A stretch of DNA of 64,000 nucleotides from a virus: positions 1-64,000 of IMG/VR virus record IMGVR_UViG_3300022745_000025; one strand, given 5' to 3'. Of the stretch, positions 2,222-10,189 are shown one piece after another (position 1 is the first letter of the stretch; the number at the start of each line of letters is the position of its first letter). The position numbers were made by a program, and so were the translations under genes. Below the pieces are notes generated by a model. It made no database searches. It worked only from the letters and a program-made list of their open reading frames with translations, and was not told where the DNA came from.

Positions 2222-2626
2222 TTAGGCTGCCAATCGCATTGCAGTTGACGGCCTGCGGTCGCGGACCCATTTGTCCAGCGTCTGATAGGGCATGCAAAGT
2301 TCGATTGCAGCCTGCTTGATCGAAAGATTTTGAGTCAGTACGCGGTTTACCGCTGAATTGCGGAATTCGTTCGTGTACTTGTTCTGGTTTGCCGGTCGCT
2401 TTCGAGCCTGAGATCGAATGCGGTCGATCACTGACGCTGACGTTGACGTTGACGTTGACGTTGACGTTGACGTTGACGTTGACGTTGACGTTGTCGGGGC
2501 TTGAGTCGGCGATGTTGTGTTGAGCGGCGTCATTGACGTTGATGGGGCCGATTCCAGTTCGAGCCTGACATTCAGCGGCAGTCGAAGTTCATTCGCGCCA
2601 TCGGTAACCACTATCCATGCTTTCAT
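2222..2626 (-). CDS. HTH DNA-binding protein with Thr-Ser repeat linker
   Basis: A 134-aa protein in three parts. Residues 1-45 form an unknown N-terminal domain. Residues about 46-66 are a (TS)n linker coded by a GACGTT tandem repeat. The C-terminal 60 residues resemble the transposase/IS3 OrfA-type helix-turn-helix (YTNEFRNSAVNRVL, then SIKQAAIELCMPYQTLDKWV). It probably acts as a phage transcription regulator and not a transposase, since no OrfB or terminal inverted repeats are present. Its 5' end overlaps the gene at 2589-2777 by 38 bp. The start lacks a strong SD. The nearest candidate targets are the palindromes at 1793-1904. Confidence 0.65.
   Translation of the reverse strand: MKAWIVVTDGANELRLPLNVRLELESAPSTSMTPLNTTSPTQAPTTSTSTSTSTSTSTSTSTSASVIDRIRSQARKRPANQNKYTNEFRNSAVNRVLTQNLSIKQAAIELCMPYQTLDKWVRDRRPSTAMRLAA
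2433..2492. repeat. Hexanucleotide microsatellite (GACGTT)n
   Basis: Nine perfect GACGTT units (2439-2492) preceded by one GACGCT. The run ends directly in GTCGGGG, completing one copy of the dispersed GACGTTGTCGGGG motif. In minus sense it codes alternating Thr-Ser. Slippage would add or remove two residues without a frameshift. Confidence 0.9.
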
Positions 2627-2777
2627 GATCGTCTTTCGGAATGATGAACGTGCCGATTCCCATCAAGACCGGAATCAGCGTTGCCCACCAGATGTTGATA
2701 AGAGACAGGATGCAGCCCATGAAGAGCCAACCTGACAAGCCCAAAAGGGCAATGGCAGCGATCATTTTCGATATCAT
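2589..2777 (-). CDS. Small membrane protein
   Basis: A 62-aa protein (MISKMIAAIALLGLSGW...) with two probable transmembrane segments (about 5-25 and 28-47) separated by a short turn, ending in a charged tail (PKDDHESMDSGYRWRE). The ATG at 2777 follows AGGAGTGAAAC, a variant of the early leader, which fixes the start. No family was recognised. Small early membrane proteins in temperate phages often serve superinfection exclusion or host takeover; here that is only a possibility. Confidence 0.65.
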   Translation of the reverse strand: MISKMIAAIALLGLSGWLFMGCILSLINIWWATLIPVLMGIGTFIIPKDDHESMDSGYRWRE

Positions 2778-2819
2778 GTTTCACTCCTAAACCTGGCCGA
2801 AAGTACGGAATCGCAGGTT
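2778..2819 (-). promoter_or_regulatory. Stem-loop + SD leader element (variant)
   Basis: AACCTG (2790-2795) pairs with CAGGTT (2814-2819), enclosing an inner CCG/CGG pair, followed in mRNA sense by TTTAGGAGTGAAAC and the ATG at 2777. The stem is longer and the loop larger than in copies a-d, but the SD block is the same. Confidence 0.55.
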
Positions 2820-2849
2820 ATTTAAGCAGAAAGTGTTGTAATTACACAA
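2820..2849 (-). promoter_or_regulatory. Possible leftward early promoter
   Basis: Minus-strand TTGTGT (2844-2849) and TTAAAT (2820-2825) are 18 bp apart, upstream of the leader for the gene at 2777. The -35 end overlaps an imperfect GTTGT/ACAAC palindrome (2835-2850). It is weak but well placed to drive the leftward genes to 1. Confidence 0.35.
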
Positions 2850-2889
2850 CAAACAACCCCAAAATCGACAAATTTTCGGGCTAAATGTC

Positions 2890-3755
2890 TGAGATGTACT
2901 GACTGGTTAGTCAGTAGTTGCGGAAAAGTGAGGCCTGGCCCCTCCACCCCCGACAACGTCAAGGTCTCTGTCAAATGCCCCGACGACGACAAGACCGAAG
3001 GCAAGACCTCCGTCAAGGCTCATGTAACTCCCCCTGTGCACACCGCAATGCACACAGGGGAAGGCACTCGTTGAAGTGCCCTCCTGAAATTTGTGCCCCG
3101 ACAACGCCGTTGCCATTGACGTTGTCGGGGGTGCTTGGTACTGGTTGATTGTTGTGCCGCTTCCCCCCGATCAATACCTGAGAAGCTGCCCATGCACCGA
3201 CACGATTACCTTGTCGGGGTTTAGGACAGTCAAACAGGATCACGCTTTAGACGTGGCATTGCCCATCACTGGGTTGCACTGTGATCGAAGTAGTTGACGC
3301 ACAAGGTCACCCGGCTGTTAAGCAGGGGTGACCGAGACGCCCCAAGCGGGGCGTCACGTTGAACGGGGTTATTGCTGAGGGGAGGCTCACACGGCTGTGC
3401 TCGGTAACTATTCCGGCACCTATGGGTTACTCTGCGCCCTTCCCATGAGTGCCCATGCGGCGGCTCAACCTGCGTGAACAAGGTTGAGTTATGGCATGGG
3501 GTTTTCATGGGTGCAACGTCGCTCCCATCGGTCTTTGATCTTGTCGGGTGGCCTTGGCAAGGCCGTTCAACGGTTGCCACCTCGGTTGCCGACTTGTGCA
3601 GTGCGGGTTATGCGAGGGTGGCGTATGGCCAGCACCGACAACCTTGCCGATCTATCAGGTAGAGCAACACCCAACACCTAACAGGCAAACGCGGGTTTGC
3701 TTATAGGGGTTTGGTGTTGTCGCTGATAGCGGCGTTGTCGGGGCTGGCTTTTTAA
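2890..3755. ncRNA. Candidate large structured noncoding RNA region
   Basis: There is no supported protein gene between 2820 and 3917; the short frames lack SDs and conserved domains. Instead the stretch is packed with perfect inverted repeats: 2897-2904/2909-2916 (8 bp), 2945-2960/3118-3133 (16 bp), 3063-3068/3075-3080, 3096-3106/3120-3130 (11 bp, an alternative pairing), 3239-3244/3281-3286, 3305-3312/3326-3333 and 3336-3343/3348-3355 (8 bp each), a three-tier hairpin 3443-3511, and a domain closed by 3628-3642/3734-3748 with TTTTT just after. This resembles ornate phage RNAs such as GOLLD or ROOL in style; identity to them was not tested. The T-run suggests rightward transcription, but strand is uncertain. 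Confidence 0.45.
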
Positions 3756-3757
3756 AG

Positions 3758-3817
3758 TGCTGACGCGCAAACCCGCGCCACGTAATCGCGTAAACAGTGT
3801 TTCGCGGTACGTCAGCA
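3758..3817. ncRNA. Three-way-junction-like fold
   Basis: An 8-bp outer stem TGCTGACG (3758-3765) with CGTCAGCA (3810-3817) encloses a small GC hairpin (3766-3777) and an AAAC/GTTT hairpin extended by CGCG/CGCG (3787-3806). In addition GCAAACCCGCG (3767-3777) is perfectly complementary to 3690-3700, so an alternative long-range pairing is possible. Confidence 0.45.
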
Positions 3818-3857
3818 GGGGTTACGGGTTACGATGAACCCGGCGTTACAGGGTGTT

Positions 3858-3911
3858 GCCTGAAGTAAACACCAGCTTGTGGCGTTTACTTCAGGCCACC
3901 GATGGGTGGCC
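3858..3911. terminator. 13-bp hairpin plus adjacent 7-bp hairpin
   Basis: GCCTGAAGTAAAC (3858-3870) pairs perfectly with 3884-3896, and GGCCACC (3894-3900) with GGTGGCC (3905-3911). They lie just past the stop (3918) of the leftward gene. Neither has a T-run in minus sense, so they may be the 3' boundary of that mRNA or part of the structured RNA region. Confidence 0.45.
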
Positions 3912-3917
3912 GATTGA

Positions 3918-4439
3918 TCAGAATGTTGCGGGTTCTGCAGTAGGGGCTTTGAACGTGTTGCCTGTTTCACGCTTGTAAGTTTCAAGCAAGGCAGCGTGCT
4001 CGGCCTGTAGGGTTTGGAGTGCAGCTTGACAAGCCTCAAATTGTGCTTTCCAGTTTGTGCTAGTTGCGGCTGTCTTAGCTGCCGGGGCATACACTGACAA
4101 CAGCGCAACGCGCGTTAGTCCTGCCCATTCATCGTGTGCTGCCTGATCAGTGAAACGCTTGCCCTTGCACTCTGCAAGTGCTGCAGTCCATGCTTGCTTA
4201 TCCTTGCCCTTGCCGTTGACAAGTGCAGTCTGCACAGGGCAGGCAGGGTTAGCCGTGTTGTTGTCAATCAGTTTGCGGTAAGTTGGATGACCAACTACAT
4301 AATTGCTGATCACCTCCAACATGGTGTTTACAGTTGCTGCAATGCCACGGTCCGAACGTTTCCCTGTGAGGTATTCGGCTTTGTCTGCCGCAGTTGCGCG
4401 GTAAGCCTGTGCCTTGCTGGTCGTTGCTGCTGCTGTCAT
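3918..4439 (-). CDS. Hypothetical 173-aa protein beside the structured region
   Basis: The start at 4439 (MTAAATTSKAQAYR...) is chosen because GGGGAATC lies 5-7 bp upstream; an in-frame start further up has no SD. The protein is Ala- and Thr-rich and helical, with a central motif ISNYVVGHPTYRKLIDN and a likely coiled coil near the C-terminus (FEACQAALQTLQAEHAALLETY). There are no membrane segments and no recognised domain. It is a single gene with its own sigma70-like promoter (4528-4557), reading toward the 2.9-3.9 kb structured region, and may share its transcript. That context makes an RNA-related role conceivable but untested. Confidence 0.6.
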   Translation of the reverse strand: MTAAATTSKAQAYRATAADKAEYLTGKRSDRGIAATVNTMLEVISNYVVGHPTYRKLIDNNTANPACPVQTALVNGKGKDKQAWTAALAECKGKRFTDQAAHDEWAGLTRVALLSVYAPAAKTAATSTNWKAQFEACQAALQTLQAEHAALLETYKRETGNTFKAPTAEPATF

Positions 4440-4527: not shown

Positions 4528-4557
4528 ATTATAACATCAATAAAACAACTACATCAA
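4528..4557 (-). promoter_or_regulatory. Leftward sigma70-like promoter
   Basis: Minus-strand TATAAT (4528-4533) with TTGATG (4552-4557) at 18 bp. It precedes the gene starting at 4439. A TTGTA-N4-TACAA palindrome (4568-4581) sits just upstream of the -35 and could be an operator. Confidence 0.6.
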
Positions 4558-7071: not shown

Positions 7072-8505
7072 ATGGACGCACCCAACGAGCAAGAGCAGAC
7101 GTGCGTCTGCTGCGGTCAAACCAAACCCCTTGGTCTATTCGGATCCTACTTTGCTAAGGGCGTACGTAAGTACAAGCTCAAGTGCAAAGAATGTCTGATG
7201 GCGTACCAACGGGAGTACATGGCCAAGAAGCGTGCCGTAAGGGACGCCGAGAAGCCAAAAAAGCCACCAGTCCGCCTCTATGACGCTCATGGGAACGTGA
7301 CGGATAAGTTGTGCAAGGGGTGTGGGCAGTACAAGCCGCTTGCAGAGTTCAACGCCAACTCACGCAGCGCGGACAAGCGCACAAGTTACTGCAGCGAGTG
7401 TGACAAGGAGAAGGCCAGGCAGTGGCGGTTGGCCAATGTCGAACGCTCACGTGCCTCTGTTAAGGCGTACCAGGCGGCACACAAAGACGAGGTGAAGGCG
7501 CGCAAAGATGCTTGGCGCACGGAGAACAAGGAACACCTTCGAGCCTGGCGTCGGGCCCACTACGAAAAGAACAAGGAGGTGATCCGTCAGTACATGCGTG
7601 AGTGGGCGCAGAGGAACCCCGGTAAGGTGGCCGACGCACGTGAGCGCCAGCGAATTAAGTACCAGGCGCGGGTGGAGGCTGATCGACAAATGGCCACCAT
7701 CATGGATGTACCCCTGCCGGAGTGGCGCAGATCTGAGCTTCAACCGCATTGGGATGCTCAAAAAGTGCGGTGGGAATTGGACTACCAAAATACGTGGCGC
7801 AAGGCAAATCCGGATAAAGTTCGCGCAAGCATGCTTCGCTGCAGGGAAGGGCGTATTGACGAACTTCGGGCGAAATGGAGGGAGAAGGCCGCAGCTTGGC
7901 GGGCTACGCCGGAAGGCAAGAAGAAGAACCGAGAGAGGGCGGCCAAATGGCGGCTGGAGAACCCCGATAAGTACAGGGAAGGATACCAGTCGTACTACCG
8001 CACCAACACTGAGAAAGTTGCCTTGAGTAAGCGCCGGTGGGTAGAGCAGAACTGGGAGCACAGCAGGAACCAACAACGCGAGTACCGCAGCAAGCCCGGC
8101 GTGGCAGAGCGTCGACAGCGCCTGCACGCGCAGTGGGCTGCCAAAAACATGGAGCGCATCAAGCATCACCGCATGAGGCGGCGTGGTCGTCGTCTGCCGT
8201 GGGTGTCTCAACTGGACTTATTGCCCGCCTACTGGGAAGCTAGACGACTGTCTCGCAAAACAGGCATCAAGCACGAGGTGGACCACATATACCCTCTGCT
8301 TTCGGAGTACGTATGCGGTCTGGATGTTCCCGCCAATCAGCGGGTCATCACACAGTACGAGAACAGGTCGAAGGGCAACAAGATACTGGATTGCCTGCTG
8401 CCAGAGATGTGCGACGTCGCTCCGTGGCACGTCCACGTAACGGCAGAGGAGCAACAACAGGTGCCGCTGCACGCAGACACTTTGAAACGGACTACCTATG
8501 CTTGA
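7072..8505 (+). CDS. HNH endonuclease with zinc ribbons and Trp/Arg repeats
   Basis: A 477-aa protein. Two N-terminal zinc ribbons (CVCCGQTK...CKEC at about 11-43; CKGCGQYK...CSEC at about 83-110) are followed by some 250 residues of degenerate repeats of the AxWRxxNxExxR type, very rich in Arg, Lys and Trp. The C-terminal HNH-like domain reads HEVDHIYPLLSEYVCGLD, with a downstream NQRVITQYENRSKGNK. HNH proteins next to terminase genes assist DNA packaging in cos phages such as HK97; a role here is inferred from the location just before TerL, which it overlaps by 8 bp. It has its own promoter and structured leader. Confidence 0.7.
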   Translation: MDAPNEQEQTCVCCGQTKPLGLFGSYFAKGVRKYKLKCKECLMAYQREYMAKKRAVRDAEKPKKPPVRLYDAHGNVTDKLCKGCGQYKPLAEFNANSRSADKRTSYCSECDKEKARQWRLANVERSRASVKAYQAAHKDEVKARKDAWRTENKEHLRAWRRAHYEKNKEVIRQYMREWAQRNPGKVADARERQRIKYQARVEADRQMATIMDVPLPEWRRSELQPHWDAQKVRWELDYQNTWRKANPDKVRASMLRCREGRIDELRAKWREKAAAWRATPEGKKKNRERAAKWRLENPDKYREGYQSYYRTNTEKVALSKRRWVEQNWEHSRNQQREYRSKPGVAERRQRLHAQWAAKNMERIKHHRMRRRGRRLPWVSQLDLLPAYWEARRLSRKTGIKHEVDHIYPLLSEYVCGLDVPANQRVITQYENRSKGNKILDCLLPEMCDVAPWHVHVTAEEQQQVPLHADTLKRTTYA

Positions 8506-10189
8506 TCCAATCTCTCACCACCACCTTCAGCGCCTCAAAACGGCGACCACAGACCGAGTCAGCCGCACTCAACTGAGTCACTGGATTGCACGCGAGACGA
8601 CCCTGAATGGACGCCCGTACAGCTTCAAGACGCACTGGTACCAGGAAAAGCTCCTGAATGACCCATCCACCGACATCGCCATTGTCAAACCGGCACAAAT
8701 TGGTGCTAGTGAGTTGTCAATGCGTTGGATCTTGGCGCTTGTGATGACTACGCCGGAGGCGATGAGGGTGGGGTACACCTTCCCAACCTACACGGCAGCC
8801 ACCAATTTCGCCCGCACCCGCTTTTCCAACATCATTGAGGGTTGTCAGGCGGCCAAGGCGGCGATGAACACCAGTGACATCGATACCGTCGACCTGAAGA
8901 CGTTCGGAGAGAATCGAGAGATTCACTTTCGAGGAGCTGCGGTGGGAAACGCCGCCATTTCCACGACTCTTGACCTGCTAGTGCATGATGAGCTTAGTTT
9001 TAGTGCTCCTGAAATTATAGCAGCTTACACCAGTCGAACTCAGGCGTCGAAGCACAAAGGTCGCATCGTGTTCTCCACACCAACGTGGCCGGGGGACAGT
9101 ATCACAACAGAGCTGGCCAGCTCGCGTCGGAACATGCTGATGTGCCGCTGCCAGCATTGCAACAACGTGTTCTACCCGAATTACTGGCAGCACGTGAAGA
9201 TCCCCGGCTACGACAAGGACTTATCCGAGATCACCAAGGACAACCTCCACAAGATCCGGTGGCAAGAGGCTGCGCTGCTGTGCCCGTCGTGCGGGAAGCC
9301 GGCGGACTTGGAGAAGGAACACCGGGAATGGGTGATTGAGAACCCCGGCGAGAACCACACCACGTCCGGGTACAAGTTGAGCCCGTTCGACCTACCGGCT
9401 ATTGTCACCCCGTCGAGCCTGATCAAGGGTTACACGAACTACGGTAACAAGACCCTTTTCCAGCAATTCGCCCTTGGGGAACCTGCGGAGGACAAGGAGC
9501 AGGGGTACACCGAGGAGGAGCTGGAGGCCGCAGGTGTTCAGTTGGCGCAAAGCCCGTTCCGACAGCACTTCTTAGGCTTAGACCTTGGTCTATACTGTCA
9601 CGCCATGGTCGGCGGCCTGGATCACGAAGGTCGGCTTGGTGTGGTACACATGGAGAGGATACACCTGAGCAACGTTCGGGAGCGCTTGTCGGCCTTGACG
9701 GCGGAGTACCGGATCGTGCTACACGTGTCAGACCAGCAGCCGTACGTCGACCTCATCATGAGTCTGACAGATGAGTACCCAAACCTGTACGGCGGTATGT
9801 TCGTGACAAAGCAGGGCCTTGATTTGTTTGAGGTCCGGGTCAGAGAAGATAACCCCGACAAAGCCCAACTCAACGTCAGGCAGGTTTCACTCAACCGCGA
9901 CGCTCTATTGGACAAGTTGCTTGCAGAGATGCGCTTGGGGAACATCTGGGTGCGCAAAACGGACGAGTGGCCGATCTTCAAGGCCCACATGCAAGACATG
10001 AAGCGGGCGAGCGCCACCCTAAGGAACGGCGAGTTCAAGTCATCCTGGGTCAAGTCGGCCAAAGGCAACGACCACTATACGTTCTCCCTGCTTTTCCTCT
10101 ATGTTGCCGCCCAGATGCGCGGATTGGCGTCCTTCAACCTGCCTTCGGTGCCGGGCGTCATGAAATTCAAGTTGAAAACAAGCGTGTAG
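8498..10189 (+). CDS. terL: Terminase large subunit (GpA-like)
   Basis: A 563-aa packaging motor. The ATPase part has a deviant Walker A (VKPAQIGASE, about 63-72) and Walker B LLVHDEL with D164/E165. A zinc site (CRCQHC at about 216-221; CPSC near 265) is typical of lambda gpA-type terminases. The nuclease domain begins near 363 with LGLDLGLYCHAM. The protein cuts concatemers and drives DNA into the prohead. The GpA type and the neighbouring HNH gene are consistent with cohesive-end packaging, but the cos site was not found. The ATG overlaps the HNH gene by 8 bp. The stop TAG forms the start of promoter P3. Confidence 0.9.
   Translation: MLDPISHHHLQRLKTATTDRVSRTQLSHWIARETTLNGRPYSFKTHWYQEKLLNDPSTDIAIVKPAQIGASELSMRWILALVMTTPEAMRVGYTFPTYTAATNFARTRFSNIIEGCQAAKAAMNTSDIDTVDLKTFGENREIHFRGAAVGNAAISTTLDLLVHDELSFSAPEIIAAYTSRTQASKHKGRIVFSTPTWPGDSITTELASSRRNMLMCRCQHCNNVFYPNYWQHVKIPGYDKDLSEITKDNLHKIRWQEAALLCPSCGKPADLEKEHREWVIENPGENHTTSGYKLSPFDLPAIVTPSSLIKGYTNYGNKTLFQQFALGEPAEDKEQGYTEEELEAAGVQLAQSPFRQHFLGLDLGLYCHAMVGGLDHEGRLGVVHMERIHLSNVRERLSALTAEYRIVLHVSDQQPYVDLIMSLTDEYPNLYGGMFVTKQGLDLFEVRVREDNPDKAQLNVRQVSLNRDALLDKLLAEMRLGNIWVRKTDEWPIFKAHMQDMKRASATLRNGEFKSSWVKSAKGNDHYTFSLLFLYVAAQMRGLASFNLPSVPGVMKFKLKTSV

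Follow-up and report, generated by a model that had tools for sequence, protein, structure and literature searches.

A candidate large structured RNA behind a fast-changing gene in a family of tailed phages

Does a kilobase of phage DNA that appears devoid of genes and is crowded with inverted repeats function as an RNA, and if so, on which strand and in what company? The question is raised by a locus near one end of the window analyzed here, a stretch of 64,000 nucleotides (positions 1 to 64,000) of the 76,756-base virus record IMGVR_UViG_3300022745_000025, which represents a tailed phage with genes for the terminase large subunit (TerL, 8498-10189), a portal protein and a family A DNA polymerase. 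Its genes are arranged in two blocks, one running rightward (4694-37597) and the other leftward, starting at 4439 and reaching the left end; in a circularly permuted genome the leftward block would run on from the right end to 37802 and constitute a 43-kb unit. The main features of the locus are listed in Table 1.

Table 1. Coordinates of the candidate RNA region, its structural elements and its neighbours in the window
Feature	Position	Strand	Remarks
Next downstream gene	2589..2777	-	behind leader TTTAGGAGTGAA
Gene-free structured region, candidate RNA	2790..3917	-	no coding signal, inverted-repeat excess, folding z, identity with L014
Domain closed by an 18-bp perfect stem (2945-2962/3116-3133)	2945..3133	-	inner hairpin 3031-3060
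Two adjacent hairpins (3305-3333 and 3336-3355)	3305..3355	-	identical in L014
Hairpin CTCAACCT/AGGTTGAG	3464..3488	-	two-sided change A-U to G-C in L014
Long nested domain closed by GCCAGCCCCGACAAC / GTTGTCGGTGCTGGC	3628..3748	-	closing arms 93% complementary; unrelated sequence instead in L014
boxA-like element AGCACTTTAAAAAG	3748..3761	-	157-170 nt past gene X stop codon
Imperfect hairpin, outer arms TGCTGACG/CGTCAGCA	3758..3817	-	8-bp outer arms
Hairpin ACCC-TGTAACGCC-GGGT, YAACG loop	3838..3854	-	4-bp stem
Long hairpin P2	3855..3899	-	right behind gene X stop codon; 20-nt arms, 90% complementary
Gene X, 173 aa	3918..4439	-	coding score 7.3; first gene of leftward unit, directly upstream of RNA
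Sigma-70-like promoter TTGATG-18-TATAAT	4528..4557	-	TG before -10 (extended -10); upstream of gene X

A preliminary description of the locus, made from sequence alone, had proposed a large ornate non-coding RNA between 2890 and 3911 without assigning it a strand. These bounds held only in part, better limits being about 2790 or 2930 on one side and 3917 on the other, between two minus-strand genes; with an end near 2930 the candidate RNA would measure ~990 nt. The likely strand is minus, and the RNA probably forms part of the message that begins with gene X. The region is bounded neither by a terminator nor by a promoter of its own, which weighs against the RNA reading favoured below. The promoter-like pattern upstream of gene X is expected 1.8 times by chance in the stretch scanned; a TATAAT box and a leader hairpin (ATGCC..GGCAT) also precede gene X in the sister phage L014 and in L026. 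Gene X itself gave no Pfam and no PHROG match, and across relatives it appeared fast-changing, poorly conserved and often alanine-rich, the members tested matching no family convincingly. Simple in-frame repeats (ATATAT..., PAPAPA...) occur in gene X of relatives (L014 1326-1865, L026 4609-5295), and one relative's contig breaks inside such repeats, whose number may possibly vary.

The earlier claim that roughly 1 kb lacks a credible ORF was upheld. No internal ORF scored as coding, the best reaching 0.8 against 6-7 (7.3 in one scoring) for the neighbouring gene X. Short or frameshifted genes might nevertheless have escaped detection, as the minus strand holds open frames of up to 104 codons, the longest of which (3266-3580) is open in L014 too. 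Against such a coding stretch, which we consider all but excluded, stand the lack of coding signal and of ribosome-binding sites, together with differences between relatives that are mostly amino-acid-changing, as a comparison by eye of the 104-codon frame in the window and L014 also indicated.

Inverted repeats are clearly in excess. The region 2890-3911 contains 15 perfect ones with arms of at least 8 bp and loops of up to 200, about five times the number in dinucleotide-shuffled sequences (2.8 +/- 1.5), in agreement with the 'more than a dozen' originally reported. When arms of at least 7 bp and loops of up to 60 were considered, 15 were likewise counted vs 3.3 in shuffles, and the maximum among 71 other stretches of the same genome was 8. 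Arms had been described as several of 11-16 bp, which is about right: the longest measure 18 bp (the stem 2945-2962/3116-3133), 13 bp (3858-3870/3884-3896), 11 bp (3096-3106/3120-3130) and 11 bp (outer ends 3690 and 3777). The multi-branch domains also claimed are predicted by folding, most clearly within the 18-bp stem. This stem shares its right arm with the 11-bp hairpin 3096-3130, so that the two are mutually exclusive and might conceivably form a structural switch. Both strands fold far below shuffled sequences (z -6.5 on the plus and -7.6 on the minus strand). Folding energy alone is not specific, because a 160-nt local folding scan of the whole genome ranked not only several pieces of the region but also other loci near the top.

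No RNA class in Rfam accounts for the region. Rfam 15 returned neither GOLLD, ROOL, HEARO nor any other family at gathering threshold in the window, and relaxing the limit to E up to 10 within 2600-4100 yielded no plausible family but only chance-level hits, e.g. to miRNA and CRISPR-repeat models; Rfam scans of the relatives' regions likewise gave no plausible family, GOLLD and ROOL included. Membership of GOLLD was rejected, its Rfam 15 model being unmatched and its usual site being near tRNA genes, none of which were detected by ARAGORN anywhere in the window. Likewise, the Rfam 15 covariance models of ROOL, in window and relatives, and of HEARO, in the window, remained unmatched. At the DNA level, no similarity to the window was found in published phages and plasmids, nor was any to the regions of two relatives found in phages. 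The comparison with these three classes that the preliminary description had proposed was thus negative under strict and lax thresholds, and its view that nothing assigns the region to a known class, which may be new, stands.

Relatives, of which 80 were kept, were retrieved with TerL alignments as query; protein scans by gene X or by a single TerL sequence found none. In ~20 TerL relatives, counting those with enough sequence, the gene in the X position is immediately followed on its 3' side by ~0.5-1.2 kb of structured sequence devoid of genes, in a gap of ~0.7-1.2 kb between minus-strand genes, and the window conforms to this placement, its region following gene X directly and lying upstream of TerL. 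These gaps were delimited with a simple home-made gene finder, which may miss small genes in some AT-rich relatives; in some relatives the end of the gap away from X does contain small genes, and the RNA there may be only ~470 nt long. At least four relatives (L012, L032, L034 and L112) carry a gene in the X position without a long region behind it. One of these, L112, is a contig of Variovorax paradoxus ISL-3, a phage of the same family in a bacterial assembly, which points to Comamonadaceae as the likely hosts. Searching for the hairpin CCCCGACAACG...CGTTGTCGGGG gave five contigs, four with a relative of the window TerL; on the fifth, L011, none was found in the portion of sequence examined. 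As a separate observation, the sequence GATGAACGATGATATCGG is shared by a subgroup (L066, L070, L071 and L077) at sense positions 331-415 of the RNA region; only seven stretches in the viral contig scan contain it, five belonging to this phage family, and it was not found in the window's region.

The sister phage L014 is especially informative. It keeps positions 2978-3630 of the window at 95% identity over 665 nt, with an unrelated left neighbour gene, a different gene X and a TerL of 61% protein identity, so that the noncoding core is better kept than its surroundings. Either constraint or recent exchange could possibly explain this retention. Positions 3630-3917 are exchanged in L014 for unrelated sequence, and yet there too a 20-bp hairpin follows the stop codon, accompanied by a GGCAA-TAACGC-TTGCC hairpin and by CCTTAAAAAT at the same distance as in the window. 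It could be argued that the region is functionless debris, in which selfish hairpin repeats have piled up with decayed genes, and both this exchange and the scattering of the 13-mer GACGTTGTCGGGG over several related genomes would fit. The 95% identity of a noncoding core beside unrelated genes, the conserved position and size, and the covariation described below make this very unlikely.

Several repeats in the vicinity deserve mention in their own right. The 13-mer GACGTTGTCGGGG is dispersed in the window (906, 1031, 2019, 2487, 2948, 3118, 44630 and other sites), with 15 copies in this genome and 33 in an 84-kb relative at up to one mismatch, and none for the reversed control. In this and several related genomes it occupies coding and noncoding sites and several hairpins, and might perhaps be a protein-binding or recombination site. 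Ten TGACGT copies at 2432-2493 encode a Ser-Thr repeat in the middle of a small minus-strand gene (2222-2626) with a transposase-type HTH end, and this repeat adjoins the 13-mer. Finally, positions 1-218 hold 12 copies of the 18-bp repeat CACCCAAGCGTCGCCGTA within a minus-strand gene.

Across the family, the gene X strand repeatedly carries three elements, namely a long post-stop hairpin, a YAACG-loop hairpin and a boxA-like sequence. All three are present in the window, the latter two being weak there on their own. The first 80 nt after the X stop codon fold with z <= -2.8 in 21 of 22 regions (z -7.2 in the window), forming one or two long hairpins of unrelated sequences. Hairpins with a YAACG(C/A) loop on unrelated stems, 59-90 nt into the region, occur in 12 of 23 regions, where 1.7 would be expected; the opposite strand has only two. 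The motif was first seen in one subgroup and afterwards in the window, L014 and L025, with stems of 4-5 bp; the shuffle frequency of the short window stem is 0.165, and it must be borne in mind that the motifs were picked after the relatives had been looked at. In an alignment of ten such hairpins from relatives, which does not include that of the window, stem covariation amounted to 0.704, vs 0.23 in shuffled and at most 0.144 in slid controls.

Compensatory changes were also detected over longer stretches. The pair L067/L099 shows 14 two-sided changes vs 3.3 in column-shuffled alignments, with an energy z of -9.5 on the gene X strand vs -5.4 on the other. Their absence from relatives had been put forward as grounds for refuting an RNA; both this pair and the YAACG stems meet that objection. 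The window/L014 pair yielded energy z values of -5.9 and -4.9 and a single two-sided change, no more than in shuffles, because the two sequences are nearly identical; their one-sided changes favour neither strand. In 15 of 18 regions the gene X strand is the better-folding one. A covariance model built from four relatives recovered two held-out ones, L056 (E 0.005) and L066 (E 0.025), in the right place and on the right strand. This model, R1, derives from another subgroup and did not reach the window at E 10, so the window's tie to the family rests on placement, YAACG loop and boxA; the whole-family MAFFT alignment was too poor for a full-length covariance test.

A role at the DNA level, as a replication origin, a packaging site or a cluster of protein-binding sites between transcription units, would be compatible with the nearly equal folding of the opposite strand, the inverted repeats, the dispersed 13-mer and the nearness to TerL. 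We regard it as unlikely, given that the boxA and YAACG loops are biased to one strand and that the L067/L099 energy favours the gene X strand, and moreover the region lies 3' of a gene, outside the divergent promoter region, and is missing from several relatives.

The best boxA match across regions peaks only at sense 131-195 nt, where it scores 8.1 of 11 vs 6.2-7.0 in all other bins on both strands. The combined p is 3e-6 for the X strand but 0.78 for the opposite one; the window copy is weak alone (p 0.09). Two references were used, GTTCTTTAAAA from a CRISPR leader (PMC7862264) and GCTCTTTAACA, the form found in E. coli rRNA. A positive control with host rRNA boxA was precluded, as no 16S was found in the Variovorax assembly. 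NusB and S10 are recruited by boxA, which in reporter constructs counteracts Rho on long RNAs that are not translated and which also promotes the maturation of rRNA (PMC4807359). No boxA was found behind X in any of the four relatives without a long region, tying the element to the long RNA rather than to the operon, though four is few.

The main rival explanation is that the region acts only in cis, as an outsized element of the nut or put type that, through antitermination and processing, lets host RNA polymerase traverse the 43-kb leftward unit, without any role for a free RNA. HK022 putRNA acts in cis on early phage transcription (PMC9378689). This remains possible: in a circularly permuted genome, gene X and the region would open the leftward unit; the region carries a boxA-like element; and neither a terminator nor an own promoter was identified. 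It is weakened by the relatives that share gene X and the same divergent layout, lack the long region and have no boxA behind X, and by structure and conservation that extend 500-800 nt past boxA. The put and nut sites are short.

Overall, the computational evidence shows structure above chance, no coding signal, a conserved place, covariation within the family and a one-strand bias of motifs. The proposal of a large ornate phage RNA is supported by the compensatory changes in relatives, the conserved placement and the lack of any matching Rfam family. It is very likely that the region functions as RNA, with transcription being inferred in the absence of RNA-seq. With less assurance, we lean towards a new family of large structured phage RNAs of ~1 kb, made from the minus strand, co-transcribed with gene X and aided by Nus factors, where transcription, ends and function are inferred. 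Whether the RNA acts free and in trans, also an inference, is evenly balanced.

In the mechanism that we envisage, host RNA polymerase would start at the promoter (4557-4528) and read gene X, then the untranslated RNA and then the rest of the leftward unit. The P2 hairpin, long enough for RNase III, could release the RNA from the mRNA. The boxA-like element ~160 nt in would recruit a NusB/S10 complex, as inferred from the motif without binding data, and the polymerase so equipped may avoid Rho termination over a kilobase of untranslated RNA and aid its folding, as at rRNA operons. The freed RNA might then serve as a ROOL- or GOLLD-like structural RNA acting in trans, the least certain step, which could as easily prove wrong as right. 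A bolder reading, which falls slightly short of our support, is that of a widespread undescribed phage RNA class of up to 1 kb, made and folded with host rRNA-type Nus/boxA machinery and then free as a structural RNA, possibly a ROOL/GOLLD-like oligomeric cage. Few giant structured phage RNA classes are known, and their jobs are unknown; the candidate would add another. Its fixed gene neighbour, likely promoter and boxA offer a handle on how a long untranslated phage RNA escapes Rho, and phages without the RNA allow comparison between otherwise similar genomes. If the reading is true, boxA would serve phage RNAs outside lambda-type operons.

The candidate shares traits with several known systems. 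As in rRNA and CRISPR leaders, a boxA would stand close to the start of a long RNA that is not translated (PMC7862264, PMC4807359), but here the putative element, for which there are no binding data, belongs to a phage transcript behind a protein gene. HK022 putRNA and lambda nut are likewise phage RNA elements near the start of a long transcript; they are short cis elements, whereas the candidate comprises 0.5-1 kb of structure. HEARO is also a phage-associated structured RNA, and the phage genome does encode an HNH/endonuclease VII-type gene (7072-8505), but 3 kb distant and on the opposite strand. GOLLD, a structured RNA of phages and prophages, in many cases over 800 nt, has conserved and variable parts and no known function (PMC12286853); the candidate is also a large structured phage RNA, but its location 3' of gene X, its boxA-like element and the lack of any tRNA in the window set it apart. 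ROOL, a large many-branched RNA of phages and prophages that assembles into multimeric cages of RNA alone, has no known protein partner (PMC12286853); the candidate differs from it in layout and in not lying near tRNAs, and resembles it in being large and, by prediction, many-branched.
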